From Romanomermis culicivorax (lineage: Eukaryota > Nematoda > Enoplea > Mermithida > Mermithidae): a stretch of 64,000 bases of DNA. The stretch spans positions 806,001-870,000 of the forward strand of contig CAWUHX010000130.1 of the NCBI GenBank assembly GCA_963922205.1, read 5' to 3'. This document shows positions 111 through 59,215 of this stretch, piece by piece. The notes beneath the pieces are model-generated. The model worked only from the letters and a program-made list of their open reading frames with translations. It was not told the DNA's origin and did not search any database. Position 1 is the first letter of the stretch. Every line of letters starts with the position of its first letter. The position numbers were made by a program, and so were the translations under genes.

Positions 111-429
111 AATTTCCAAAAATTTTAATAAATTTTTTTCATGAATGTGTACAGGTCATAAAAAGCTGTATTATATTCTAGCATATTTACACTAAATCAC
201 AGAAATTTCGATGACCCGAAAAATTTGCATATGCTAATTTATACAGTTTTCATTTTCCAAATGTGTCAAATTTGGGCTAGAATTATTTAAACTGATATGA
301 AAAAGTTGAATGTTCAAAAATTCTACAGTAATCTTGTTCAATTTACACTAAAATGGTGTAAAGTAACATTTTTTTACAAAATGGATTTTCAACAGTTTAC
401 ACAAGTTTAATCATTTTTTAAACTCAATT

Positions 430-3400
430 TTTTGTCGAAGAAAAAACGAAATATGCAAATTTTTGAATATTGAATCACTGTGGTCGATAAAGTGGGACTA
501 AAATCAGTGTAAACTAGGATTTTTTTGACGAAATGGAGCTTTTTACAGTTTACACAATTTTTAAGTTAAAATTTTTTTTTCTTGAATTCAATTTTTTCTA
601 AAAAACATGTTTAAACAACGAAATATGCAAATTTTAGAAATTCAGTTCACTGTGGTCGATGACGCGAGACTAAATTTGTTGTAAAGTAGAATTTTTCGAT
701 CCACTTAAATTTTCGTTTAATTTACACAATTTATAAGTTTAAATTCTTTAAAATTTTTTTTTCTCGAAAAATTGGTTTAAACACCCAAATATGCAAATTT
801 TTGAAATTAAATTCATTGTAGTCGATGAAGTGGGACTGAAATGGGTGTAAAATATAGAATTTTTCATAAAATGAATTTTCTAGTTTTTTTTACAAAAAAC
901 TGGATTTGACAACAAATATCCAAGTTTTCAAAGTTGAATTCACCGTGGTCGATGAAGTGAGACTATAAAATTTTTGTAAAGTACGATTTTTGCCCGGAAC
1001 GAATTTCACTTACACTTTACACTTTCGATTTAAAGTGATCGTTCATGATATTGTGTTTACACCTAATTTGCATATTCAATTTTTTTTCAAACATCAATAT
1101 CTCGGTCGTTAATTATCCAAATAGGATAAAAATTATATATTTAGAATCGCCTTGAAGAGCTCTATCAGAAAATATAAAAATAAAAAAAAACAGATCGAAA
1201 TTCATAATTTGAAAAAAACCTATTTTTATGGGTTAATCAAGTGTTTTTAAAATTTTGCAAATTAAGTTCATTGTGGTCGATAAAGTGAGACTTTAATTAT
1301 TGTAAAGTGCCATTTTTCAATAAAAACCGACTTTCTTTAGAATTAAAAACCACACTTTCAAAATGTCGTCATTTGTTGTAGACCTCAATTTTGCAAAAAA
1401 ACTGGTTTAAACAACGAAATATGCAAATTTTTTAAACTTGATTTTACTGTGGTCGATAAAGTGAGACTAGAAAATTATTGTAAAGTACGCTTTTCTGTTG
1501 TACTTTACAATAATTATATATTGTATTCTTATATATTCACACTTTACACCATTTCTTTAAAGTGATGTTGGAATATCCACTTTACACCTAATTTGCATAT
1601 TCAAATTTTTTTCCAATGGTTGTATCTCGGTCGTTAATTATCCAATTAAGATTAAAATTATATATTTAAAATCGCCTCAAAAAGTTCTATCAGAAAATAT
1701 TAAAATCAAAAGCAGCAGACTGAAATTCGCGAATTTTTTCCCCCCATTGAAAAACCCCATTTTTGGGCAAAAAAAAAGCAAAAAAAAGATTTTTTTTTGA
1801 ACATTAATTTTAAAAAACTGCTTCAACCACGAAAATATGCTAATTTTTTTTAAAATTTTGATTTACTCTGGTCGATGAAGCGAGACTAAACAATTTTTGT
1901 AAAGTACAATTTTTTAATGAAACGAATTTTTCTTACACTTTACACAACCTTCAAACTCACCTTTTCAAATATGTAAATTTTTTATATGGTCGATGAACTG
2001 AGACTAAAATTGTTGTAAAGTTGGATTTTTCGACGGAGTAAAATTTTCTAACACTTTACACTATTGGTTTAAAGTGATTAGTTCTGAAATCGTGTTTACA
2101 CCTAATTTGCATATTCGAATTTTTTCAAACATTAATATCTCGGCCGTTAATTATCCAATTAGGATAAAAATTATATATTTAAAATCGCCTCAAAAATTTC
2201 TATCAGAAAATACTAAAATGAAAAGCAGCAGACTAAAATTCGCAAATTTCCCTCCTTGAAAACCCCTGTTTTTATGGGTTAATTAAATTTTTCTGAATTT
2301 TTTTCTTCTAATTAAGTTAATTATGGTCGATAAACTGAGACTAAAATTATTGTAAAATAAGATTTTTCGGTGAAATCAACTTTTTTTTTTACATTTTACA
2401 TCACACTTTCAAAATGTTGTCATTTTCTGTGAAGCTTAATTATTTGCAAAAAGACCGCTTTAAACAACGAAATATGCAAAATTTCCAAATTTTTTTTTTC
2501 ATTGTGGTCGATAAAGTGGGACAAAATTGATGTAAAGTTGGATTTTTGATGAAATAAATTTCTGTACACTTTACACTATTGGTTTGAAATGATGTCCCAA
2601 AAATCTTGTTTACACCTAATTTGCATATTCAATTTTTTTTAAACATTAATTAATATCTCGGGCGTTAATTATCCAATTAGGATAAAAGTTATATAATTAG
2701 AATCACCTGCAAAAGTTCTTCAAATAAATGACAATAAAAAAGAAACAGAATGAAATTATCTATGCAAAGAACCCAATTTTTATGGCTTAATTAGGCCCAA
2801 AAAAGCAAAAAAAGATTTTTTTGGACCTTAATTTTATTAAAAAAAAACTGCTTTAAACAAAAAGATATGCAAAATTTGCTAATTTTTATTCACTGTAGTC
2901 GATGAAGTGAGACTAAAGTTGTTGTAAAGTACAATTTTCTGGAAAAACTTTTTTTCTTACACTTTACACTATTGGTTCGAAGTGATTTTCCAAATATGGT
3001 TTTTACACCTAATTTGCATATTCAAGCTTTTTTTAAAAAAAAACAGCAATATCTCGGTCATTAATTATCCAATTAAAATAAAAATTAAATATTTGGAATC
3101 GTCTCGAAAAGTTCTTTCCGAAAATAACAATTATAAAAGCAAAAAATTAAAATTTAAAAAATTTTTCCCTGTGAAAAATTCCTAATTCTTAGGTATTCCT
3201 AGAATTTTTTTAATTAGTCGATAAAGTGGGACTAAATATGGTGTAAATTGTCATTTTTTGATGAAATCAACTTTCTTTAGATGTTACACCACATTTGCAA
3301 AATGTCTTTTTTTTCTCTGTGAAGCTTAATTTCGCCAAAAAAAACGGTTTAAACAACGAAATATGCAAATTTTTCAAATTTAATTTATTGTGGTCGATAA

Positions 3401-4190
3401 AGTGAGACTAGAAAATTATTGTAAAGTGTACTTTAAAATAATTTTATATTTTATTCTTATATTCTTACGCTTTACACCATTGGTTTAAAGTGATTGCTCA
3501 TGATTCTGTGTTTACACCTAATTTGCATATTCAAGCTTTTTTTTAAAAATAGCAATATCTCGGTCATTAATTATCCAATTAAAATAAAAATTATATATTT
3601 GGAATCGTCTCGAAAAGTTCTTTCCGGAAATATAAAAATAATAAGCAACAGGTAAAAATTCAGAATTTGCAAAAAAAAAACTTATTTTTATGGGTTAATC
3701 AAGTGTTTTTAAAATTTTGCAAATTAAGTTCATTGTGGTCGATAAAGTGAGACTTAAATTTTTGTAAAGTGCAATTTTTTTTCTATAAAAACCAATTTTC
3801 TTTAGAATTTAAACCACACTTTCAAAATGTCGTCGTTTTTTGTGAAGCTTAGTTTCGCCAAAAAAAAAACGGTTTAAACAACGAAATATGCAAATTTTTC
3901 AAATTTATTTCATTGTGGTCGATAAAGTGGGACAAAGTTGATGTAAAATAGGATTTTCGATCAAATGAATCTCTTTTACACTTTACATTATTGGTTTAAA
4001 GTGATTGCTTATGATTTTTTGTGTTTACACCTAATTTGCATATTCAAGTTTTTTTTTAAAACAGCAATATCTCGGTCATTAATTATCCAATTAAAATAAA
4101 AATTATATATTTGGAATCGTCTCGAAAAGTTCTTTCTGAAAATAACAATAAAAAAAGAAAAAACAAAAAATTGAGAATTTTCATCAAGAA
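430..4190. repeat. AT-rich satellite, unit about 510 bp
   Basis: Two landmarks recur in the same order. 'TTTACACCTAATTTGCATATTC' type sequence appears near 1051, 1582, 2096, 2609, 3003, 3509 and 4022. 'ATATCTCGGTCGTTAATTATCC' type sequence follows each time, near 1097, 1623, 2135, 2655, 3051, 3555 and 4067. Spacing is mostly 500-525 bp, with one shorter unit of about 395. A second motif, GTGGTCGATAAAGTGAGACT, occurs one or two times per unit and continues in more degenerate form back to about 480. Short open frames near 2074 and 2982 are simply this unit read in one frame. No coding content is supported. Confidence 0.85.
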
Positions 4191-4199
4191 AATGTGTTT

Positions 4200-4680
4200 T
4201 TATAGCTAAATTAAACTTGAGAAAATAATGACCTTGTTTTTACTTTTTTCGTCTCCCTACCCACACACAAACTACAGTATAATTATTTTAACTACTATGC
4301 GTGTTATTGCAAGCTCTTTGAAAAAGCTATAAAATAAGAGCCTAGAAGAAGCAAGATCCATCCACCAATGTCGATTTTTCGACAAATTATCTCCTCAAAA
4401 TTAGCTTGAACAATAGAGTCAGTTGCTAGCTGGCCGAAAATTCTTTCATCTTTTTGGACAACCGAAATTTTTTTCCCACTCTATAGAAGCTGGAGATGGA
4501 CTTCCTGGCCTTGCTATTTTAGCCCAAAAATATAGAAAACTAGCAACTGTTCTAGGAAAATTAGCTAAATTTTGATTAATTAGCAGCAACATTTGTCGAG
4601 CAGACGTTGAGGATCCGAAGCTCTGGGCAAAAATTGTGTGTGTGTGCGCGCGAAAATAGATGGCAAATAGAAATATGAAA
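4200..4680. other. Non-repetitive stretch, no gene recognised
   Basis: Sequence of more balanced composition between the 510-bp satellite and the next repeat block. It includes a short TG run near 4637. I see no long open frame with splice sites and no similarity to other parts of the window. Confidence 0.4.
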
Positions 4681-4684
4681 CTTG

Positions 4685-7260
4685 GTGTATGGAGATGTTA
4701 GTTTAGAGTCAAAATAAGAGGAAAAAAGAGGAAATTTGGGCTCGTAAAATTAAGTTATTAGGAGTTTTTTTTTGCGAAATGGGAAGATGCTCAGGAAAGG
4801 AAAAGGAATGCTACAGTAAGACATAGTGTAGTTGGATGTCAGGTTACTGTAGAAAAAAGTGAAATTTTGTATTTTTAAAAAAATCTAATTTTGAACTTGC
4901 GTACTACTCGAAATTCAAACCTCGAAAATAACAAAAAAAGCTCAAAATTTGGAATTCCAAGCTCAAATTTAAAAATTCAGACGTCAAAATTCAAAATTTA
5001 GAAGTCGAAATTCAACACTCGAAGATAAAAATTCGAAATTCAAGCCCCAAAGTTTGACACAAAAAGCTCAAAATTAGACAAAGAAGCTCAAAATTCGACA
5101 CAAAAAGCTCAAAATTCCAAATTCAAAACTCAAATTTCAACAAGAAAGCCTACAAACTCGGAATTTAGAGTTCAGAATTCGAAATTTAAACCTCAAAATT
5201 CAACACCCAAAATTAAAAATTTGAATATTTAAAGCTCAAAATTAGAAATCCAAAGCTGAAATTTCAACACTCAACGTTCGAAGTCCGAAATTCAAAACTG
5301 AAAATTGCAAAATTACAGCTAAAAATTCGAAATTAATAGCCTAGAAACAAGCTGAAAAAGCTCAAAATACGAAATTCAAAAGTTTAGGCTTAAAATTTGA
5401 AATGGAAAATTAAAAATTCAACACTGAACCCTCAAAATTTGATACAAAAAGCTCAAATTCGAAAAACCAAAGGTTAAATTTCAAATTCGTGGCTCAAAAT
5501 TCAATACTAAAGACTCAAAAATCGAATTTTAAGCTTCAAAACTCAACACAAAAGGCTCAGAATTCGAAATTAAGAGATCAAAATTCGAAATTAAAAACTC
5601 TAAATTCCAATTTTAAAGGTTCAAAATTCAACAACTAAGTTCAAAATTTCAAAATTTCATTTTTTAAGAAAGAAATTAATGGAGATGTTAGTTTAGAGTC
5701 AAAATAAGAGGAAAAAAGAGGAAATTTGGGCTCGTAAAATTAAGTTATTAGGAGTTTTTTTGCGAAATGGGAAGATGCTCAGGAAAGGAAAAGGAATGCT
5801 ACAGTAAGACATAGTGTAGTTGGATGTCAGGTTACTGTAGAAAAAGGTGAAATTTTGTATTTTTAAAAAAATTAAAATTTTTAAATGGTGTACTGTATGC
5901 GAAGTTCAAAGCTCAAAATTCAAAATTCTGAAGTCAAAATTCCAAATTCGAAACTCAAAAGTTCCAAATTTCAAATTCAAAAATTCGAAATCTAAAGCTG
6001 AGATATCCACACAATAAGGTTAAAATTCGAAATTCTAAGCTCAAATTTCAACAGTCAAACTTCAGAATTTAAAATTCAAGGCTCAAAATTTAACACCCAA
6101 CGTTTGAAAGTCGAAATTTAGAAATCGAAATTCAACACAAAAAGCTCAAAATTCCAAATTCAATGCTCAAAATTCGACATAAAAGACTAAAAATTCGGAA
6201 TTCAGAGCTCAAAATTCCAAATTCAGGGCTCAAAGTTCGATTCAAAATTCAACAAAAAAAGCTCAAAATTTAAAATTTCAGGCTCAAAATTCGAATATCA
6301 AAACTCAAAATTCGGAAGGCTCAAAATTTGAAATTTCAACTTTCAAGGGAGAAAATTATAAAAATGTTAGTTTAGAGTCAAAATAAGAGGAAAAAGGAGG
6401 AAATTCGGGCTCGTAAAATTAAGTTATTAGGAGTTTTTTTTGCGAAATGGGAAGATGCTCAGGAAAGGAAAAGGAATGCTACAGTAAGACATAGTGTAGT
6501 TGGATGTCAGGTTACTGTAGAAAAAAGTGAAATCGTGTATTTTTTTAAAAAATTAAAATTTTTAAATGGTGTACTGTATGCCAAATTCAAAGCTTGAAAT
6601 TCAAAATTCTGACGTCAAAATTCCAAATTCGAAACTCCAAAATTCCAAATTCGAAATTCAAAAACTCGACATCTAAAGCTGAAAGTTCCACACATTAAGC
6701 TTAAAATTCGAAATTCTAAGCTCGAATTTCAACAGTCAAACTTTAAAATTTGAAATTTGAAGCTCAAAATTTAACACCCAGCGTTTGAAAGTCGAAATTG
6801 AGAAATCGAAATTCAACACAAAAAGCCCAAATTTCGACATAAAAGACTAAAAATTCGGAATTCAAAGCTCAAAATTCCAAATTCAGGGCTCAAAGTTCGA
6901 TTCAAAATTCAACAAAAAAAGCTCAAAATTCGAAATTTCAAGCTCAAAATTCGAAATTTCAAGCTCAAAATTCGAAATTTAAAACTCTGAATTCCAATTT
7001 TGAAGTTCAAAATTCAACAACTAAGTTCGAAATTTCAAAATTTCAATTTTCGAGAAAGAAATTAATGGAGATGTTAGTTTTGAGTGAAAATAAGAGGAAA
7101 AAAGAGGAAATTTGGGCTCGTAAAATTAAGTTATTAGGAGGTTTTTTTGCAAAATGGGAAGATGCTCAGGAAAGGAAAAGGAATGCTACAGTAAGACATA
7201 GTGTAGTTGGATGTCAGGTTACTGTAGAAAAAAGTGAAATTTTGTATTTAAAAAAAAAAT
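4685..7260. repeat. Four copies of a ~190-bp module in 0.7-1 kb repeats
   Basis: Nearly identical modules begin at about 4692, 5681, 6362 and 7064. Each starts ATGTTAGTTT(A/T)GAGT(C/G)AAAATA, contains GAAGATGCTCAGGAAAGG and CTACAGTAAGACATAGTG, and ends near GAAATTTTGTATTT. The space between modules is AAATTCGAAATTCAAAGCTC-like low-complexity sequence, so the units are about 990, 680 and 700 bp. The 88-codon frame at 7065-7331 is one module read through, not a gene. Confidence 0.85.
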
Positions 7261-38936: not shown

Positions 38937-39532
38937 TGTTGTATTTTAAAATTGGATGGGCGGTTGGGGGCGGCTCTGACCGATTTCTTGCCTCATTGAT
39001 CCGTCAGGTCGGAGGAAGGAGTGTAAAATTGGCAAGGGGAATTGATGTGCAAGAGAGATAGCCAGGGATCGACCTTAACGCCAGTGCTTCCCTGCACCTG
39101 CCCTAAACCTCGGAATGACTCCTCACTCAGAGGGGAGAAGTCAAGAACAGAATACTAGCTTTCCAAGAAATGCCTCACTAAAACTAGTCAGACAAAGTAA
39201 CACACTTTTGGACACAAATAAAACGCTTTTCTAACTAACTATTTATTTATACCACTACCTAAAAATCGCCGTTTCCAAAAAACATGACGTCTTACCAATA
39301 TAAAAACCAGGCGAGTAATGTACAGGCGAAAATGATAATTATAATATGAGAGGCGAGACGCATGAGAAAAATCAATAATATACATTAACTAAGTCACAAA
39401 AACCGTCTTCTACAGTAACCGTCATGCTGGGCCAGGTTGGGCATGGTTGGATGTGTTGTACGTGTGGGCGTTTTTACAAATTGACAAATCTATTAGAAAA
39501 TCGTGAAAAATTGGCAGAAACACACTACAATA
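38937..39532 (-). mobile_element. Solo LTR-like element, family B
   Basis: 596 bp, starting TGTTGTATTTTAAAATTGG and ending CACACTACAATA, flanked by GACC at 38933-38936 and 39533-39536. It interrupts the second tRNA-derived repeat: GCCAGACC on the left rejoins CCACCACTACAACA on the right. Confidence 0.95.
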
Positions 39533-41092: not shown

Positions 41093-41292
41093 CAGGTTAG
41101 GGTTAGGCTTAGGCTTAGGCTTAGGCTTGGGCTTAGGCTAGGGCTTAGGCTTAGGCTTAGGCTTAGGCTTAGGCTTAGGCTTAGGCTTAGGCTTAGGCTT
41201 AGGCTTAGGCTCAGGCTTAGGTTTACACTTAGGCTTGGGGTTAGGCTTTGGGTTAGGCTTAGAATCAGGCTTATACTTAGGCTTAGGGTTTT
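41093..41292. repeat. Degenerate interstitial telomeric array (TTAGGC)n
   Basis: About 30 hexamers of TTAGGC with variants such as TTGGGC, CTAGGGC and TTTACAC. It ends GGGTTTTATTTGCAC, as does the matching array at 54345-54435. It marks the left edge of the segmental duplication. Confidence 0.9.
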
Positions 41293-41775
41293 ATTTGCAC
41301 ATTAATTAAAATTTGGTTGATTTGTCCACTGGAAAGTTGCTTATTTCATTCTGCTTGAGAAATAAAAAAGCATAACTGTGCAAAAAATAGTTATGGATCA
41401 AATAATTTCGATGTTTAAGAAGAATGCAAGTATAACCTTGGATACGGTGTCCAAATAAGGTCATGGTCTTATGCTATAACATAGATCTGTGTTATAACAT
41501 AGGATATGTTGTAATATTGGAAATGCCTAAGACATTTTATATAATAGGACATGTTACAACTAGTCAGAGCTACAAGTTACACACAAGTAAATTACTCGAT
41601 TTTTAGAGCTTTCGCATCAAAAAACCTTGAACAATAATAGGAGGTCTTTGGACACTTTTTGCAAGCTAATCGGTCTCCACAGCATTTCTAAACATCCATG
41701 TAGCTATAGTAGGACACTCCGCATGTCACCATATCATTTTTATGCGTTCTGTCTACGACAAAGGTTCTTCACTTA

Positions 41776-41963
41776 TGTGTCACGTGTCCCATGACCATAC
41801 ATCACCCCTTCGTAAATATTGCAACACTGGCTCGGTAGTTCAATCGGAAGAATGCTGCACTATAGTCACAGAGACCCGGGTTCGAATCCCGGTCGAGCAT
41901 TATTTTTCGAACAGTGTTTGGCGATGGTTACGATGGCAACACATTTACCCATTACGTGTCATA
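41776..41963 (+). mobile_element. tRNA-containing insertion absent from the paralogous copy
   Basis: Copy 2 of the duplication reads straight through CTTATGAATACAG here. Copy 1 has ~188 extra bases flanked by TATG on both sides, with ends TGTCACGTG and ACGTGTCA. The tRNA-like block is followed by GAGCATTATTTTTC, the same tail as the tRNA-derived repeats at 38.5 kb. A deletion from copy 2 is the alternative. Confidence 0.5.
41829..41899 (+). pseudogene. tRNA-like sequence, degenerate
   Basis: GGCTCGG pairs with TCGAGCA except at the first pair. The D arm is GTTC...GAAT and the T arm is a perfect CCGGG-TTCGAAT-CCCGG. The anticodon arm CTGCA-CTATAGT-CACAG has two mismatches and would give anticodon ATA. 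A working tRNA is unlikely. Confidence 0.6.
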
Positions 41964-42038
41964 TGAATACAGTGACCAAAATTTCTCACTAGTGGTCACG
42001 GCTATTGGAGTAAGGCGCTGTTTTTTGACAGTGTAAAC

Positions 42039-42240
42039 TTGTCAGTTTTAGGAAGACATAAGCAGGATAACGTTATTTGGAATTCAAAGCTTGTAGAAGA
42101 TTCACAACATAGAAGATTACAGCAACAGAAAAAATTGTCAAAAATTCATTCTCATCTTCCGCTGCGGTCTTTAGTAGTTGTGCTTCTTGTTTGTCTTTCG
42201 CATCATATTGAACATTGTCAAATGGGAAAATTTACTTGGT
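42039..42240 (+). CDS. Possible upstream exon of the receptor locus
   Basis: The open frame reads NVIWNSKLVEDSQHRRLQQQ, KKLSKIHSHL and a short hydrophobic LVVVLLVCL, and ends at ACTTG|GTAAGT, a good donor. The duplicated copy at 55990-56160 keeps the frame, with a clean 36-bp in-frame deletion and the same donor. That argues for coding constraint or simply recent duplication. No joined acceptor before the ATG at 42518 was established. Confidence 0.3.
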
Positions 42241-42517
42241 AAGTTTTTGTACAATAAAATGTAGAGCCTTTTGGCTTCTCCATCATCTACATATTAAATG
42301 ATTTTCATTACTAATTAGTATCATTTTTCCTATTCAGATCAAATAATTTAGCTATCATGATGCTCTAGCAATCAATTTCCATAATATGCGGAAGTTTTCT
42401 GATTCTGTTTCATCAGTATTACAGATGAAGAATCAATGAAATTCTAATGAGCTATCAACTTTCCTTTATGGATTCTTAACTACTTTATCAGTTTTTCCAA
42501 GCCTACCAATTAAAAGA

Positions 42518-45500
42518 ATGTTCACCTTGGTTGTCACGCTCAGCATACTCTATATTATATTGGGATCGATCGGAATGACCGTTAATTTGTGTGTCACTTT
42601 GCTGATTTGCTTTAGTAGTAAATTCAAAAATCCAACTTACACTTACATCGTGAACCATTTGGCGTCGGATATGCTTTGCCTGTTCCCGATAAGCATTTAT
42701 ACGGGATTTTGTATGCTGATAGGAGAAAAGTATTTGGAAAGATTAATGTCGGTTTTGGTTGATTTGGGTAAGTAATGTTGTGGCATGTATGATTCAATTA
42801 TGAATCTATTTTTTTACTCATGCATATAACTTTGAAGTCCATTGCCACGTTAGTAAAAGTCAAACTAGGTAAAAATAGTAGCGTAGAGTGATTTCCATCC
42901 AGCAGTGCCGTCAAGCTTGATAATCTCATTTTGGTTTACTGTAATGGCAAAGTAGGGGAAAACTATCTATCCCGGTAGTCCTGCTCTGCTCCTGCTAAAT
43001 CAGATTCCTCAAGTCCTCACCAGTATAAATGCAGTATCTCGCTGAATTTTATATATAAAATCAATCCTATTATATTTTGAGTTAGTATGCAAATGTTTCT
43101 TTAATATTTTTAATTAAATAATTCTTTTCATTTTTGTATCTAAATTTTTTTTGGTGAATTGAAAAACTTTCTGTAACATTTTTTTCAGGTTATTGTTTAT
43201 GACTCCAATGAAAAGCTCCATCAATTTTCCATGATTTCCAACACATTTTTATTTACACATACATATATAAAGTGCATTAATATCTAGAAAAAATTGTCAT
43301 ATATAACAGATATAATATTAATAACATGTATAACATGTATAAAATATAAAAAACGTATAACATATACAACACACAGAACATGTATAGCACATATAACATA
43401 TAAAGTATCACAACATATATAAAATATACTATGTATATAGCACATATAACATATGCTATGTATATAGTACTTATAACACATACTATGTATATAGCATATA
43501 TTACACATACCATGTATGTAGCATATATAACACATAAATCATATACAAAATATTCACATATAACACATAAATCATATACAACATATTCATATATAACACA
43601 TACTATATATATAGCACATATAACATACAGAGCATATATATAACATATTCACATATAACATATACTATGTATGTAGCACATATAACATACACTATGTATA
43701 TAGCATTTATAACATATAAAGCATACATAACATATGCACATATAACATATAAAGCATACATAACATATTCACATATAATATATACTATGTATATAGTACG
43801 TATACCATATATTATGTATATAGCACATGCAACATATAAACCATATACAACATGTTCAGATATAACATATGCTATGTCTATAGCACATATAACATTTAAA
43901 GCATATACAACATTTGCACATATAACCTATATGGACTACATAATATATTCACAGATGATATATATACTATGTATATAGCACATATAACATTAACTATCTA
44001 TATAGCACATATAACATATACCATATATATATAACAATGTATATAACATAAGTAAAATATATGACATATGTAACATATATAACAGATAACACATACATAA
44101 CATATATAATGTATATAACCTATATAACATATATAACATATATAACATATACATATATAACATCTACACCATGTATAAAATAGATAACATATTTAACATA
44201 TATAATGTACTTAACATATATAACGTATATAACATATATAATGTACTTAACATATATAACGTATATAACATATAAAACATATATAACTTATATAACATAT
44301 ATAACATATTAACATTTATAACATACATAACATATATAACATATTAACATATATAACATACATAACATATATAACACATATGACAAATATAACGTATATA
44401 ACATATATAACATATATAGCTTATATAACATATATAACATATTAACATATATAAAATACATAACATATATAACATAACATATATACATAACATATATACA
44501 TAACATATATACATAACATATATACATAACATGTATACATAACATGTATACATAACATATATAACACGTATAACAAATATAACGTATATAACATATATAA
44601 CATATATAATGAGCCACATAAAACGCAAAGTTTTCGCACAATGAAAACAAATAGAAGATCCAAAAAACAAATGGAAAAACATATTGATTCCCATAAACAT
44701 CAATTTTATTACTTATGCAAATTTTATAAAGAGGAAAAAAAATTTTCAGAGACCAAAAATGTAGAAAAACAACATAAAATTGAAAGCATATAACATCAAG
44801 TACCAATAGAATAAAGGAATGGGAAACCAGGTTGATTCTCAGGTTGTGCCAACATTCAGCGTATGCTGCGAATCATTCTTGGTTTTGGTAAATTGAGTGT
44901 ATTTTGTTCAAAAGTTTACATTAATTATTGTAATAGTTAGCAAGATTATTGACAATTTTTTCCTATGAATCTTTATTATGTATTATTTTCTTCCTCTCTA
45001 GGTTGGTATCCGAGCGGCTTTTTCTATATTTGCATTGCTGCCACTAGGGTCATGGCTATTGGTTCCAAAACTCGTCTGGAGGAAACTTTAACCAAAAAAG
45101 CGACAATTGTTACAATATCCATTATATGGATACCTTATATAATTATTACTGGTGGCTATATGTTCAATGATCAGAAACCATCGGGCCTTGACTTTCGCGT
45201 GTATACATGGTGGTATGATACGGATGTGGCATATGGTTATTATATGAATATATACTACGCATATCACGGCGTCTTCACATCAATTTTAATTGTGATCCTC
45301 AATATAATAGCTATTGCGCTAATGAGGCAGAAATTACGTAATATCCACCCTAATGTGCAGTCAACAGTGAATCGAAACCGAGAAAGAAAATTGTTTAGGC
45401 AGTGTTTAATCACCAGCATGTTTTATAGTTTTACTGCTTTCATGTACACAACCCTTTACGAATCAACTTGGGGTCAATCCTTGGAATTGGAATATTATGC

Positions 45501-45708
45501 TATATTCCATATTGTATGGATATTCAATCATAGTTCAAGTTCAGTTATCTACTTTTTATTCAACAGAGATCTGATCAATATCGTGAAAAAATTTTTCAAT
45601 CAACACTCGTCTGATCGAGACAACAAAACAAGGATAATACCTCATATTAACTGTAGGAAGAAGAGCAATGCGGAAGTTATTGGAAACAGCATAGACACGC
45701 CTTTATGA
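42518..45708 (+). CDS. Nematode seven-TM chemoreceptor, srx-like, two exons
   Basis: Exon 1 is 42518-42767, ending GATTTGG|GTAAGT. Exon 2 is 45002-45708, after CTCTCTAG. They join in phase (G|GT) to give about 318 residues, normal for this class. Predicted membrane segments: LYIILGSIGMTVNLCVTLL (TM1); a second around LCLFPISIYTGFCML; GFFYICIAATRVMAI (TM3 with a TRVMAI motif where many receptors have DRY-like residues); ATIVTISIIWIPYIIITGG (TM4); GVFTSILIVILNIIAIAL (TM5); CLITSMFYSFTAFMYTTL (TM6); and IVWIFNHSSSSVIYFLFNRD (TM7, like the NPxxY region). Such receptors act in chemosensory neuron cilia. AATAAA lies 12 bp after the stop. Assignment to srx rather than a neighbouring family is tentative. 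The 2234-bp intron is mostly microsatellite. Confidence 0.75.
43290..44612. repeat. (ATATAACAT)n microsatellite in the receptor intron
   Basis: About 1.3 kb of ATATAACATATA words with GCATATA, CTATGTATATAG and ATACATAAC variants. All frames reading MYIAHITYT or ICYICYVC are shadows. The duplicated copy occupies 57190-57982, up to the N gap. Confidence 0.9.
44620..45000. other. Non-repetitive end of the receptor intron
   Basis: Unique AT-rich sequence leading to the TTCCTCTCTAG acceptor. No separate feature. Confidence 0.4.
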
Positions 45709-47776: not shown

Positions 47777-47814
47777 CTTACCTAGTGAACAGCAAAGCAA
47801 CTTCAACTACTGAT

Positions 47815-47960
47815 ACATATCTTACAGTATGATCACATTATGTGATGTGCAGGTATATTTCATGTACATTTTCTTGGAAAGTTCAAGAAACTTCAACAAT
47901 ATTCTATAATATGCTTTTTGTGTATATTCTGCAATATTCTAGAATATTTCGGGATTTCCA
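47815..47960. repeat. Dispersed repeat, inverted relative to 53995-54135
   Basis: CATATCTTACAGTATGATCA, GATGTGCAGGTA and a stretch rich in ATATTCTA-like words appear here. In reverse order and complement they appear at 53995-54135 (TGATCATACTGTAAGATATG). Confidence 0.6.
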
Positions 47961-48249
47961 TTTAATTATTTTGAATTCAGTACACTACTTTGGTATGTTG
48001 TCTTAGTTAGGCTTATTGAACTTGGCTATTCTCAAGCTAGTATTCCAGTTGGTGATTCAAAAATTATCCAAAGGCTAATCTATTTTCAATATAGTCCAGA
48101 CTAAGTACGCACCATATCCATAATAGAATGTAATTTAATAAAGCTATGTGACTGGATATAGATAGTTTCATTATTTTACATGGAAGCATCTATAACATAT
48201 CAAAACATGAAAAACTAAAAAAATTTCAAAGATGCAATTTTAGGCCGTT

Positions 48250-50108: not shown

Positions 50109-50819
50109 GGTGCACCAACAATTGAGCGCCGACAATTGAGCGTGGACAACTGAGCGCCGGACAATTGAGCGCCGTGACAACTGAGCGCTGAAAACTGAGT
50201 GCCATCAACTGAGCCCTGACAACTGAGCACTGGACAATTGAGCGCCGACAATTGAGTGCTGACAACTGAGCGCCAGACAACTGAGCGTCATGACAATTCA
50301 GCGCCGTGACAACTGAGCGCCAGACATTTGAGTGCTGACAACTGAGCACCGACTATTTAATGCATTATAATTGAGCGTTTTTTTCATTTACTGAGTGCTA
50401 CGGAATACGAGCATTTCAGTGATTATCTACCATAATGATTATCTACCGTAATGTATATATGTCCATATGTCTAATATTATGAATCAAACAAATATGGTCA
50501 TTTTTGATTCGTATGACGAAGCCTAAGCCTAAGCCTAAGCCTAAGCCTAAGCCTAAATGCAAAATAGTTACTTCAAACTGATTGGGTTATTTATCTGACA
50601 TTAAATACACGGCGGTCAGTTGTCGGCCCTCAGTTATCTGGGGCTCAGTTGTCTTGGCGCTCAGTTGTCGGCGCTCAGTTGTCGGTGCTCAGTTGTCGGC
50701 GCTCAGTTGTCGGCGCTCAGTTGTCGGCGCTCAGTTGTCGGCGCTCAGTTGTGTGGTGCTCAGTTGTTGGCGCTCAATTGTCAGCACTCAATTGTCCGGC
50801 GCTCAATTGTCGGGTCACG
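50109..50819 (+). mobile_element. Telomeric-core foldback element, small copy
   Basis: The left end is GGTGCACCAACAATTGAGCG, followed by about 15 degenerate copies of (GACAATTGAGCGCC), then TATTTAATGCATTATAATTG and an A/T spacer. The core is a short (CCTAAG)n at 50519-50557. The right arm, 50612-50819, is the inverse minisatellite (GGCGCTCAGTTGTC) ending GGGTCACG. Flanks are TATTACAG and TATTACAC, a near-perfect 8-bp duplication. No transposase frame is present, so the copy is non-autonomous. Confidence 0.8.
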
Positions 50820-52881: not shown

Positions 52882-52945
52882 AAAGTACACCATGACCCGA
52901 CAATTGAGCGCTGGACAATTGAGCGCCAACAACTGAGCGCCGTGG

Positions 52946-53852
52946 CTTAGGCTTAGGCTTATGTTTATGCTTATGCTTAGGCTTAGGCTTAGGCTTAGGC
53001 TTAGGCTTAGGCTTAGGCTTAGGCTTAGGCTTAGGCTTAGGCTTAGGCTTAGGCTTAGGCTTAGGCTTAGGCTTAGGCTTAGGCTTAGGCTTAGGCTTAG
53101 GCTTAGGCTTAGCCTTAGGCTTGGGCTTAGGCTTAGGCTTAGGCTTAGGCTTAGGCTTAGGCTTAGGCTTCGGCTTAGGCTTAGGCTTAGGCTTAGGCTT
53201 AGGCTTAGGCTTAGGCTTAGGCTTAGGCTTAGGCTTCCGCTTAGGCTCAGGCTTCGGCTTAGGCTTAGGCTTAGGCTTAGGCTTAGGCTTCCGCTTAGGC
53301 TTAGGCTTAGGCTTCGGCTTAGGCTTAGGCTTAGGCTTAGGCTTAGGCTTAGGCTTAGGCTTAGGCTTAGGCTTAGGCTTAGGCTTAGGCTTAGGCTTAG
53401 GCTTAGGCTTAGGCTTAGGCTTAGGCTTAGGCTTAGGCTTAGGCTTAGGCTTAGGCTTAGCCTTAGGCTTGGGCTTAGGCTTAGGCTTAGGCTTAGGCTT
53501 AGGCTTAGGCTTAGGCTTAGGATTAGGCTCAGGCTTAGGCTTAGGCTCAGGCTTAGGCTCAGGCTTAGGCTTAGGCTTAGGCTTAGGCTTAGGCTTAGGC
53601 TTAGGCTGGCTTAGGCTTAGGCTCAGGCTTAGGCTTAGGCTTAGGCTTAGGCTTAGGCTTAGGCTTAGGCTTAGGCTTAGGCTTAGGCTTAGGCTTAGGC
53701 TTAGGCTTAGGCTTAGGCTTAGGCTTAGGCTTAGGCTTAGGCTTGGGCTTAGGCTTAGGTTTAGGCTTAGGCTTAGGCTTAGGCTTTGGCTTAGGGTTTG
53801 GCTTAGGCTTAGGCTTAGGCTTAGGCTTAGGCTTAGGCTTAGGCTTAGGCTC
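52946..53852. repeat. Long interstitial telomeric array, about 150 TTAGGC units
   Basis: Nearly perfect TTAGGC hexamers with scattered variants (CTCAGG, TTCCGC, TTCGGC, TTTGGC), some recurring in a regular pattern such as TTAGCCTTAGGCTTGGGC at 53107 and 53456. It is internal, not a chromosome end. The LRLRLR, GLGLGL and PKPKPK frames are shadows. Confidence 0.95.
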
Positions 53853-53994
53853 GGGGAGTTCACAGATTAACCCTAGCATAATTGAAATACTAGTTGGCAA
53901 ATAGCTACGTTTAATAAGGCTAACTAACACAACATGCAATAACAAATGAATGAATATACAAAACAATACGGCTTATATAGTATCATGGAAAATC

Positions 53995-54342
53995 ACGGAA
54001 TGTTCTAGAACAATGTAGAATGTAAGAGAATATTGTAGAATTTTGCGGAAGGTTCTAGAACTTTCGGAACAACAGAGTACGTGAAATGTACCTGCACATC
54101 ATATTATGTGATCATACTGTAAGATATGCATCATTTGTACTTGCACATCATGTCATAGGATCGTACTGTAAGATATGTATTTGAACTGAATCTACATGAT
54201 TAAGCATAGGCTATGCTTAAGCATAGGGAAAATGAAAAGACTTGGTGCTATGATGAAGCATATGTAATGCTTGAGCATAGTAACAGATCAAAAATAGTAC
54301 AGCTTGAAATTAATGTATATGATGAAGGATTGGCAATGCTTA
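53995..54342. repeat. Dispersed repeat, inverted copy of 47815-47960
   Basis: Shares TGATCATACTGTAAGATATG and TACCTGCACATCATATTATG with the 47.8-kb copy in reverse. A second, shorter TACTGTAAGATATG lies at 54165. The rest to 54342 is unique. Confidence 0.55.
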
Positions 54343-55308
54343 AGCAGGGTTAGGCTTAGGCTTAGGCTCAGGCTTACGTTTACACTTAGGCTTTGGGTTA
54401 GGCTTTGGGTTAGGCTTAGACTTAGGCTTAGGGTTTTATTTGCACATTAATTAAAATTTGGTTGATTTGTCCACTGGAAAGTTGCTTATTTCATTCTGCT
54501 TGAGAAATAAAAAAGTGTAACTGTGCAAAAAATAGTTATGGATGAAACAATTTCGATGTTTAAGAAGAATGCAAGTATAACCTTGGATATGGTGTCCAAA
54601 TAAGGTAAATAGAAAATCTATATTATTTAAAATGTAAGTGTGCATCTGTTTGTTTGTCTTTTTCTATGTCACAATTCACAAAATACACTGGTCTGTTGAA
54701 AGATCTACTTTTTAAAGCAAAAATCTACTTTATTTGCCCCAACAATTTTTCATTCCATTCCGTGAAATCTTGCGCAAGAAGAATTTTACGACGTTTGCCT
54801 ATGTCATAACATAGAAATTTTTTTTTCCAACAAATTTTGGACATAGGAGAGAAATAGCCTCATGCTATAATATAGCTCTATGTTATACCATGTAAAAAAT
54901 TTTCTTCCGCGAAAATTTTATTTTTAGAGATAACATAGTCCAATGTTATGATATATGCTAAAGCAATAAGATATAAAATTTTTTCTTTTAAATTAACCTA
55001 AGCTATATGTTATATCATGGGTCTCATGCTATAACATAGATCTGTGTTATAACATAGGATATGTTGTAATATTGGAAATGCCTAAGACATTTTATATAAT
55101 AGGACATGTTACAACTAGTCAGAGCTACAAGTCTCACACAAGTAAATTAGTCGATTTTTAGAGCTTTAGCATCGAAAAACCTTGAAAAATAATAGGAGGT
55201 CTTTGGACACTCTTTGCAAGCTAATCGGTCTCCACAGCATTTCTAAACGTCCATGTAGCTATAGTAGGACACTCCGCATGTCACCATATCATTTTTATGC
55301 GTTCTGTC

Positions 55309-55893
55309 TGTTATATTTTAAGATGGCGATGGGCGTTTGGGGGCAGCTCTGACCGATTTTTGCCTCCTTGATCTGTCAGGTCGGAGGAAGGGGTGTAAAA
55401 TCGGCAAGGGGAATCCAAGTGCAGGAGAGATAGCCAGGGATCAACCTTAACGCAAGTGCTTCCCTGCGCCTGCCCTAAACCTCGGAATGACTCCTCACTC
55501 AGGAGCGAGAAGTCCAGTACAAGAATACTACCTGCCCAAGAAATGCCTGACTAAAACTAGTCAGACAAGGAAACACACTTTTTGGACACAATAAAAACGC
55601 CTTTCTAACTAAACATTTATTTATAAAACTTACCTAAAAATCGCCCCTTCCATAAACGTTTCGACTTACTATTATAGAGAATGCAATGGCTAATGTACTG
55701 GCGAAAATAAGAATAACAACATATGATGAGACACACGAAAATTCACACACTAATTCACAAAATCCTTCTCCTACAGTAACCGTCGCGCTGGGCCAGGTCG
55801 GGCATGGTTGGATGTGTTGTACTTGTGGGCGTTTTTACAAATTGATAAATCTATTAGAAAAGGCTGAAAAATCCGCGGAAACACACTACAACA
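55309..55893 (-). mobile_element. Solo LTR-like element, family B, in duplication copy 2
   Basis: 585 bp, starting TGTTATATTTTAAGATGG and ending CACTACAACA, flanked by TGTC at 55305-55308 and 55894-55897. The paralogous site at 41745-41755 (GTTCTGTCTACGAC) is empty and has one TGTC, which proves the insertion ends and dates it after the duplication. Confidence 0.97.
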
Positions 55894-55989
55894 TGTCTAC
55901 GACAAAGGTTCTTCACTTATGAATACAGTAACTTAAATTTCTCTACTAGGGGTCACGGCTATTGTAGTAAGGTGCTGTTTTTTGACAGT

Positions 55990-56160
55990 GTAAACTTGTC
56001 AGTTTTAGGAAGACATAAGCTGGATAATGTTATTTGGAATTCGAAGCTTGTAGAAGATTCACAACATAGAAGATTACAGCAACAGAAAAAGTTGTCGAAA
56101 ATTCATTCTCATCTTCTGCTGCGGTCTTTAATAGTTGTGCTTATGGGAAAATTCACTTGG
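55990..56160 (+). CDS. Duplicate of the possible upstream exon
   Basis: Copy of 42039-42240 with an in-frame 36-bp deletion and the same ACTTG|GTAAGT donor. Coding status is as uncertain as that of copy 1. Confidence 0.25.
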
Positions 56161-56443
56161 TAAGTTTTTTGTACAATAAAATGTAGAGCCTTTTAGCTTC
56201 TTCATCATCTACATATTAAATGATTTTCATTACTAATTAATTAGTATCATTTTTCCTATTCAGATCAATTAATTTAGCTATCATGATAATCTAGCAATCG
56301 ATTTCCATAATATGCGGAAGTTTTCTGATTCTGTTTCATCAGTATTACAGATGAAGAATCAATGAAATTTTAATGAGCTATCAATTTTCCTTTATGGATT
56401 CTCAACTACTTTATCAGTTTTTCCAAGCCTACCAATTAAAAGA

Positions 56444-56693
56444 ATGTTCACCTTGGTTGTAGCGCTCAGCATACTCTATATTATATTGGGATCAATCGGA
56501 ATGACCGTGAACTTGTGTGTCACTTTGCTGATTTGCTTTAGTAGTAAATTCAAAAATCCAACTTACACTTACATCGTGAACCATTTGGTGTCGGATATGC
56601 TTTGCCTGTTCCCGATAAGCATTTATACGGGATTTTGTATGCTGATAGGAGAAAAGTATTTGGAAAGATTGATGTCCGTTTTGGTTGATTTGG
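56444..56693 (+). pseudogene. srx-like receptor exon 1, duplicated fragment
   Basis: Nearly identical to exon 1 at 42518-42767. The frame is open, the GTAAGT donor is intact, and amino-acid changes are few (for example LVVALS for LVVTLS and NHLVSD for NHLASD). Exon 2, with TM3-TM7, is not seen before the N gap at 57983 or after it. The copy is therefore truncated, unless exon 2 lies in the unsequenced gap. Confidence 0.8.
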
Positions 56694-57189
56694 GTAAGTA
56701 ATGTTGTGGCATGTATGATTCAATTATGAATCTATTTTTTTACTCATGCATATAACTTTGAAGTCCATTGCCATGTTAGTAAAAGTCAAACTAAGTAAAA
56801 ACAGTAGCATAGAGTGATTTTTTTTGGTTTACTCATTTTGGTTTACTGTAATGGCAAAGTGGGGGAAAACTATCTATCCCGGTAGTCCTGCTCTGCTCCT
56901 GCTAAATCAGATTCCTCAAGTCCTCGCCAGTTTAAATGCTGAATTTTATATATAAAATCAATCCTATTTTATTTTGAGTTAGTATTCAAATGTTTCTTTA
57001 ATATTTTTAATTAAATAATTCTTTTCATTTTTGTATCTAAATTTTTTTTGGTGAATTGAAAAACTTTCTGTAACATTTTTTTCAGGTTATTGTTTATGAC
57101 TCCAATGAAAAGCTCCATCAATTTTCCATGATTTCTAACACATTTATATTTACACATACACATATAAAGTGCATTAATATCTAGAAAAA

Positions 57190-57982
57190 ATTGTCATATA
57201 TAATACATATAATATCAATAACATGTATAACATGTATAAAATATAAAAAACGTATAACATATATAACACACAGAACATGTATAGCACATATAACATATAA
57301 AGTATCACAACATATATAAAATATACTATGTATATAGCACATATAACATATGCTATGTATATAGTACTTATAACACATACTATGTATATAGCATATATTA
57401 CACATACCATGTATGTAGCATATATAACACATAAATCATATACAAAATATTCACATATAACACATAAATCATATACAACATATTCATATATAGCACACAC
57501 TATATATATAGCACATATAACATACAGAGCATATATATAACATATTCACATATAACATATACTATGTATGTAGCACATATAACATACACTATGTATTTAT
57601 AACATATAAAGCATACATAACATATGCACATATAACATATAAAGCATACATAAGATATTCACATATAATATATACTATGTATATAGTACGTATACCATAT
57701 ATTATGTATATAGCACATGCAACATATAAACCATATACAACGTGTTCAGATATAACATATGCTATGTCTATAGCACATATAACATTTAAAGCATATACAA
57801 CATTTGCACATATAACCTATATAGACTACATAACATATTCACAGATAATATATACTATGTATATAGCACATATAACATTAACTATCTATATGGCACATAT
57901 AACATATACTATATGTATAACAATGTATATAACATAAGTAAAGTATATGACATACGTAACATATATAACAGATAACACATAT
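57190..57982. repeat. (ATATAACAT)n microsatellite, copy 2
   Basis: Copy of the receptor-intron microsatellite, cut by the N run. Small indels relative to copy 1 occur near 57590. Confidence 0.9.
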
Positions 57983-58082
57983 NNNNNNNNNNNNNNNNNN
58001 NNNNNNNNNNNNNNNNNNNNNNNNNNNNNNNNNNNNNNNNNNNNNNNNNNNNNNNNNNNNNNNNNNNNNNNNNNNNNNNNNN
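57983..58082. other. Assembly gap, 100 N
   Basis: Exactly 100 N between the microsatellite and a TTAGGC array. The round size suggests a gap of unknown true length. Confidence 0.99.
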
Positions 58083-58215
58083 CTTAGGCTTAGGCTTAGG
58101 CATAGGCTTAGGCTTAGGCTTAGGCTTAGGCTAAGGCTTAGCCTTAGGCTTAGGCTTAGGCTTAGGCTTAGGCTTAGGCTTAGGCTTAGGCTTAGGCTTA
58201 GGCTTAGGCTTAGGC
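58083..58215. repeat. Interstitial telomeric array (TTAGGC)n
   Basis: About 22 near-perfect hexamers with TAGCCTTAGG and CATAGG variants, ending at GGCCTCAGTAAATG. Confidence 0.95.
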
Positions 58216-58409
58216 CTCAGTAAATGAAAAAAACGCTCAATTATAATGCATTAAATAGGCGGTGCTCAGTTGTCGGTGCTCAAATGTCTCGCGCTCAGTT
58301 GTCACGGCGCTCAGTTGTCGCGGTGCTCAATTGTCTGGCGCTCAGTTGTCGGTGCTCAATTGTCGACACTCAATTGTCCGGCGCTCAATTGTCGGTGCAC
58401 CAAAGTACA

Positions 58410-58729
58410 CTTGAAGCTTTAACATGTAAAATTCAACATTGTTGTAGAAAATACGTCCTAAGCTTTTCCACCTTGTAGAAAGTACGCCTGAAGCTGTAAC
58501 ATGTAAAATTCCACACCACTGTGGAAAGTGTGTAGAGTCGCCCCAACTTGCCTTAGCTCAGACGTTAAAATTGCCGTTTTTTGAAAAAATTACAAATTTT
58601 GTGTGTAAAATCCTGGATTTTTAGTTTTTTCTTACAAATTCAGCACTTTTATGTTCTTCCTTGAACATAATATATCAAGAAACCATGTTCGGCATGACCA
58701 TGTTGAGCTTCCAGTTTTCAAAATTTAAC
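58410..58729. other. Dispersed repeat remnants, no gene
   Basis: Contains GAAGCTTTAACATGTAAAAT at 58415 and its paralogue GAAGCTGTAACATGTAAAAT at 58491. The second is preceded by an uninterrupted GTAGAAAGTACGCC, an empty-site equivalent of the large element's target. Confidence 0.5.
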
Positions 58730-59215
58730 GGTGCACCGACAATTGAGCGCCGGACAATTGAGCACCGTGACAACTGAGCACCGTGACAACTGAGCGCGAG
58801 ACATTTGAGCGCCGACAACTGAGCACTGACTATTTAATGCATTATAATTGAGCGTTTTTTTCATTTACTGTGGCCTAGGCCTAAGCCTAAGCCTAAGCCT
58901 AAGCCTAAGCCTAAGCCTAAGCCTAATCCTAAGCCTAAGCCTAAGCCTAAGCCTAAGCCTAAGCCTAAGCCTAAGCCTAAGCCTAAGCCTAAGCCTAAGC
59001 CTAAGCCTAAGCCTAAGCCTAAGCCTAAGCCTAAGCCTAAGCCTAAGCATAAACATAAACCTAAGCCTAAGGCACGGTGCTCAGTTGTCGGCGCTCAGTT
59101 GTCTGGCGCTCAGTTGTCTGGCGCTCAATTGTCACGGCCCTCAGTTGTCTGGCGCTCAGTTGTCGGGGCTCAATTGTCGGTGCTCAATTGTCCGGCGCTC
59201 AATTGTTGGGTCATG
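58730..59215 (+). mobile_element. Telomeric-core foldback element, small complete copy
   Basis: 486 bp. The left end is GGTGCACCGACAATTGAGCG, then minisatellite, then ATTTAATGCATTATAATTGA and a T run. The core (CCTAAG)n runs about 58870-59070. The right arm is (GGCGCTCAGTTGTC)n ending GGGTCATG at 59215. Flanked by a perfect 9-bp duplication AAATTTAAC (58721-58729 and 59216-59224). This copy defines the family's ends. Confidence 0.9.

Follow-up and report, generated by a model that had tools for sequence, protein, structure and literature searches.

The window analysed here is a stretch of 64,000 nucleotides from the mermithid nematode Romanomermis culicivorax (GenBank assembly GCA_963922205.1, contig CAWUHX010000130.1, positions 806,001 to 870,000 of the forward strand; G000:C130:806001-870000), and plain coordinates below refer to it. 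The subject is a transposon-like element, E2 (52891-58401), which contains other DNA including part of an srx-type receptor gene. Two complete small copies, E1 (50109-50819) and E3 (58730-59215), both on the plus strand, lie to its left and right. The left end of E2 begins with CATGACCCGACAATTG at 52891, and the right end finishes with the reverse complement of GGTGCACCGACAATTG at 58401. From left to right, E2 opens with a B end (52891-52943, minus strand), made up of a terminal CATGACCC and about three 14-bp minisatellite units, fewer than in most copies. The main TTAGGC array of the core follows (52944-53853, minus strand; GCCTAA when read from A to B). Next come fragment X (53856-54336, plus strand), a truncated copy of a dispersed repeat, and a second, degenerate TTAGGC array (54340-54440, plus strand), which is homologous to an array at 41.1-41.3 kb. 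The srx-type cargo extends from there to a scaffold gap of 100 N (57983-58082). Beyond the gap lie the TTAGGC array of the A side of the core (58083-58214, minus strand) and the A end (58215-58401, minus strand), which consists of a spacer, 14-bp minisatellite units and a terminal GGTGCACC. An Rfam scan of 30000-64000 returned four tRNAs only, none of them inside E2.

Both outer sides of E2 carry the same 9-mer, AAAGTACAC, identical at 9/9 positions (52882-52890 and 58402-58410), as a preliminary description of this DNA had stated. These target-site duplications were identified by sequence reading and by the flank-pairing test described below. The preliminary description had also likened the ends of E2 to those of the small copies. 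The two unlike ends are indeed the same in E1 and E3; as to the flanks, E3, of subfamily II, has a perfect duplication (AAATTTAAC, 9/9), and E1, of subfamily I, has only the imperfect TATTACA (7 bp, offset 1). A 30-base join of the left flank, one AAAGTACAC and the right flank gave 11 genomic matches with 2-3 mismatches, and the reversed control gave none. E2 sits in a dispersed repeat, other copies of which continue uninterrupted across the insertion point. Because these joined flanks exist elsewhere in the genome, the two halves of E2 very probably belong to a single insertion site, despite the gap between them. The 9-mer is itself part of the dispersed repeat motif, and its recurrence alone is therefore weaker evidence than that of a random 9-mer.

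The whole assembly (359,112,060 bases in 595 contigs) was searched for further copies. The A end, GGTGCACCGACAATTG, occurred exactly at 153 places and the B end, CRTGACCCGACAATTG, at 198, and neither reversed control occurred at all. Fifty-one copies with an A end were read, namely 48 fetched from the 153 exact places and the three copies in the window; E1 was included despite one mismatch in its A-end 16-mer. In 47 of the 51 the B end was located by script, and these are referred to as paired copies. Target duplications were identical at 9/9 positions in 35 of the 47 paired copies and at no fewer than eight of nine in 41, and 44 had 8-9 bp duplications when an offset of up to 2 or one mismatch was allowed. 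When flanks of different copies were paired as a null, the same three classes contained 0, 2 and 2 of 2162 pairs. The paired copies without a duplication by these measures were L001, L041 and E1. Among the four unpaired copies, L031 has GAGAAACCC (9/9), L040 has ATGTTTTC (8/8), L017 shares CTAAACG, and the B arm of L045 is interrupted by a gap of 100 N. Duplications of this size fall in the 8-10 bp range of Mutator-like elements (MULEs). The preliminary description had proposed a single insertion of a Mutator-like element with 9-bp duplications, and had named beforehand a lack of 8-9 bp duplications around genome-wide copies as what would speak against it; the counts above and the joined flanks bear the proposal out.

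Element length had a median of 851 bases and ranged from 360 to 5511, E2 being the longest. Facing ends were also paired for 75 of 100 listed A places against 100 listed B places. Among the matches listed, 57 A places had a facing B end on their contig, 45 of them at 360-1182 bases, and the longer distances were 1877 (L072), 2701 (L020) and 5511 (E2), followed by nine longer ones. The nine include places with a nearer, inexact B end, and seven of them were read, all except those on contigs C139 and C153. The length of L020 was considered as a sign of capture and rejected: its extra DNA is a nested palindromic insertion flanked on both sides by ACTGATTG, so length alone does not indicate capture. 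The family copy at L010:4717-5701 has the 9-bp duplication AGGCTTAGG, with more TTAGGC-like pieces adjoining it, and is an insertion into telomere-like DNA.

The TTAGGC core is a near-constant feature of the family. At least three GCCTAA units, read from A to B, were present in 50 of the 51 copies, and three TTAGGC units in none, the core thus always having one orientation. Subfamily I has unique spacers beside the array and accounts for 16 of the first 28 paired copies, to which L015, unclassed by script, is added; subfamily II has the array directly against the arms and accounts for 11 of the 28, E2 included. The spacers of the 16 subfamily I copies differ by a mean of 5.4%, which suggests that this subfamily spread fairly recently. 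The same irregular hexamers are seen towards the A side in several subfamily I copies, and the array was therefore inherited through transposition and not added afresh each time. Two copies had no TTAGGC core, L023 from the sample and L072 (G000:C157:520180-522270), which was fetched for its length. In L072 the family ends and a 9/9 duplication, CCCAAACTG, enclose about 1.3 kb containing long inverted repeats, a third core type. The TTAGGC core may be called telomeric by analogy with the common nematode telomeric repeat (PMC9071541), not from the telomere of this species itself. No telomeric array was seen in 20 contig ends of 300 bases each, a small sample that says little.

L023 provides a possible link between the family and a transposase. 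Both family ends are present, with the 9/9 duplication ATGAATAGG. The copy is homologous to subfamily I up to TATGACGAAG and again from TGCAAAATAG, and the intervening stretch of about 0.85 kb stands where subfamily I has its array. The broken frames of this interior matched an R. culicivorax UniRef protein named MULE transposase domain-containing (87% identity over 56% of the 97-aa query, E 2.2e-24); 22 further matches were unnamed or hypothetical. L023 retains only what would be the C-terminal region of the transposase, and no intact copy was seen, though not on the basis of a genome search. To judge from this alignment, the array of subfamily I exactly replaces the transposase-bearing interior of L023. 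That interior is inverted relative to its A and B ends, and recombination between the inverted arms could have flipped it. Pfam searches of L020 detected no transposase domain.

FB elements have long inverted arms of tandem repeats, and we know of no telomeric core in Foldback elements (Tetris, FB). Tc6 of Caenorhabditis elegans, a palindromic transposon relative, has TTAGGC repeats and Tc1-like ends. The closest likeness in architecture is to Tm1 of Meloidogyne, a Mutator/Foldback family with target duplications of 8-10, mostly 9, bp and non-autonomous groups beside a MULE-coding form, whose transposase is of the Phantom type (FLYWCH and MULE), as described in PMC3169594. The present family resembles Tm1 in its unlike short end motifs, here of 8 bp, in inverted arms composed of varying numbers of tandem repeats that are mostly 14 bp long, and in duplications of mostly 9 bp. 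The suggestion that no described family has such ends thus did not stand; what is new to us is only the telomeric core. The motifs themselves differ, being A1 CGGTTAA, A2 CCTACCC and C CGATTCAGTATCGC in the Tm1 account (PMC3169594), and here GGTGCACC, CATGACCC/CGTGACCC and GACAATTGAGCGCC. For this reason the family is said to work like Tm1 and is not filed as Tm1. The word 'telomer' is absent from the Tm1 main text (PMC3169594), whereas a telomeric core was found here in all but one of the copies read. Among Foldback elements, Tetris of Drosophila virilis also has long tandem-repeat inverted arms (PMC4079207), a likeness drawn from description only. The telomere-bearing elements of Oxytricha are likewise DNA transposons carrying the host telomeric repeat, but are described as Tc1/mariner elements with that repeat at the termini of the inverted repeats and a 3-bp duplication (PMC4724952), unlike the internal array of the Mutator-like elements reported here. 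Mammalian interstitial telomeric sequences at double-strand breaks (PMC2246262, PMC8537989, PMC7215372) are comparable in that the array here stands exactly where L023 has its interior; those accounts concern single-locus insertions, whereas here the array has spread by transposition. No transposon with a telomeric core was found in the open-licence literature, which is not proof of absence; to our knowledge, the telomeric core is a new part of an otherwise described architecture.

The core of E2 holds other DNA, including an srx exon 1 copy, as the preliminary description had indicated. The likely source lies within the window at 41097-45708 (plus strand) and comprises a TTAGGC array, an upstream region and an srx-like gene with exon 1 from 42518, an AT-satellite intron to about 44.6 kb and exon 2 within the open reading frame (ORF) 44965-45708. 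An Srx-named relative was found for exon 2, one protein of the window has an R. culicivorax relative at 65% identity, and Pfam gave only sub-threshold 7tm_1 and Srt matches for the exon 1 frames. The region 54338-57982 is collinear with 41179-44095, with 69 substitutions in 2458 aligned bases (2.8%) and insertions on both sides. Part 1 of the cargo (54441-55308, plus strand) corresponds to 41291-41754 and has about 410 bp that are absent from the source. A 583-bp repeat (55309-55891, plus strand), 83% identical to 38937-39530, is nested in the cargo and has no counterpart at that point of the source. Part 2 (55892-57982, plus strand) contains the srx upstream region, exon 1 and the start of the AT-satellite intron, collinear with the source to 44095. 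The ATG lies at 56444 versus 42518 in the complete gene, and exon 1 is open in E2, where it differs from the source at 8 bases and 2 amino acids. The figure of about 4 kb given earlier for the cargo holds as a lower bound only, the true size of the gap being undefined.

Three observations concern the source and its surroundings. About 208 bp with a tRNA-Tyr-like gene (41755-41961) are present in the source only, by later insertion there or loss from the copy. A large AT-rich satellite (43240-44612) lies in the intron of the srx-like gene and is common to both copies as far as they are assembled. A distant relative of the gene (exon 1 76%, exon 2 71%) lies on the same scaffold (G000:C130:937529-941608) and points to a local receptor-gene cluster.

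The 1213-base srx part was found at full length at two genomic places, E2 and the source, which are 13,956 bases apart on the same scaffold; the remaining 35 matches were short and 68-85% identical. Part 1 of the cargo gave the same pattern, and BLAST against the fetched loci L001-L051 detected no cargo. These results bear on a Pack-MULE-like transduplication, in which the element would have picked up the srx segment at or close to the source locus before transposing, with this cargo, to its present site. MULE-like ends and an intact 9-bp duplication do enclose the gene fragment, and the Tm1 paper compares one of the Tm1 groups with the acquisition of host sequence (PMC3169594). Yet the full-length cargo occurs only at E2 and its source about 14 kb away, no other fetched copy has it, and it brings the TTAGGC array of the source along and lies within the telomeric core, not directly between the arms. 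Capture of this kind, favoured in the preliminary description, is accordingly regarded as improbable.

Copies of fragment X were found in the window (47811-48050) and at L002, L003 and L021, in each case outside the family elements. The repeat carries paired motifs of the TTCTAGAA type, and two of its copies have family elements nearby, at most a few hundred bases away. We take these motifs to resemble heat-shock elements, and paired heat-shock-like motifs are a feature of some nematode Helitrons. Helitron capture, considered on account of these motifs, was rejected: X is a truncated dispersed repeat that starts in TTAGGC, although its ends were not examined for Helitron features.

The gap in E2 hides the right edge of the cargo. 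It is a 100-N join between contigs that end in tandem repeats, the AT satellite on the left and TTAGGC on the right. A primer-like sequence, AAGCAGTGGTATCAACGCAGAGTACT, was observed at 6 of 20 contig ends (L057, L058, L060, L061, L064 and L070) and also beside N inside a scaffold (L017:5641-5666). It presumably derives from a SMART amplification primer and, as an unremoved adapter, indicates that the library was probably amplified, so that repeat-mediated chimaeras are possible. The gap in L045 (G000:C90:606834-608334) is another 100-N scaffold gap, in the B-arm minisatellite, and the assembly seems to be interrupted at family elements. The R. culicivorax v2 assembly consists of NextDenovo contigs scaffolded with RagTag on another assembly, and the reported 716 gaps and 70.6 kb of N are consistent with fixed 100-N gaps (PMC10879605). 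All of this would suit an assembly artefact, with two genuine contigs, or chimaeric reads, fused at TTAGGC repeats and the element and the srx copy not being neighbours. The flanks, however, fit one insertion site with joined-flank paralogues elsewhere. The left half of E2, fragment X and the cargo lie on one gapless stretch, and its own substitutions and insertions mark the cargo as a separate copy, not a displaced piece of the source. An artefact is therefore conceivable mainly across the gap, and as an explanation of E2 it seems a poor prospect.

The explanation we favour, and hold to be probable, is that E2 arose by a single insertion of a non-autonomous element of a Tm1-like Mutator/foldback kind and was later opened by a local duplication from 41.1 kb. 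It builds on the ends, the duplications, the family, the replaced interior relative to L023 and the cargo source found above. Local duplication into an existing insertion is preferred because the full-length cargo occurs only at E2 and about 14 kb upstream, beside another TTAGGC array. An ancestor would probably have lost its transposase-bearing interior and gained a telomeric array instead through break or gap repair. The defective element may then have spread, mobilised in trans by a MULE transposase. Later, DNA from 41.1 kb rightwards, itself opening with a TTAGGC array, would have been copied into the core of E2, and fragment X would have entered together with it. Homology between the TTAGGC arrays, which have the same orientation at both loci, was perhaps the route.

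A sharper form of this local duplication is an unequal exchange between the array at 41.1 kb and the core of E2, giving a tandem duplication of about 12 kb, mostly within the gap, that would include exon 2 and a second left half. Both arrays have the same orientation and are 12-13 kb apart. The homology begins within a TTAGGC array in both copies and, in E2, continues to the contig end in mid-satellite, and the open exon 1 with its few changes is as expected of a whole second gene. Fragment X, however, is absent from the source array, and no second exon 2 region is assembled, an absence for which the gap would account without demonstrating it. Such an exchange is possible, though we consider it doubtful.

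Several observations weigh against the favoured explanation. Only the left junction of the cargo shows TTAGGC, the right one being hidden in the gap. Fragment X lies between the main array and the array on the cargo side and needs a separate explanation or an extra step. Exon 2 has one close copy in the assembly, the other match being 71% identical and on the same scaffold, so that the gene may or may not have been duplicated whole. L072 has the family ends but neither a TTAGGC core nor any nameable sequence, and a Pfam search of the three read-through frames of L023 gave no MULE domain. The primer-like sequence at contig ends also makes chimaeric joins possible.

According to PMC9071541, interstitial telomeric tracts in nematodes are associated with rearrangement and with alternative ways of maintaining telomeres. 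If the favoured explanation is true, oriented telomeric arrays have been planted at 150 or more interstitial places of an animal genome by a transposon family. It would also provide a testable origin for interstitial telomeric tracts, by replacement of a transposase interior followed by transposition, and E2 would be a concrete locus with a telomeric tract at the edge of a receptor-gene duplication. A further idea, put forward tentatively since we think it rather unlikely, is that the TTAGGC core serves as a landing pad, host DNA beside other arrays entering this Mutator/foldback family by telomere-repeat recombination, unlike the capture by Pack-MULEs or Helitrons. If captured cargo later moved with intact ends, telomeric repeats would serve generally as docking sites at which genes are captured.

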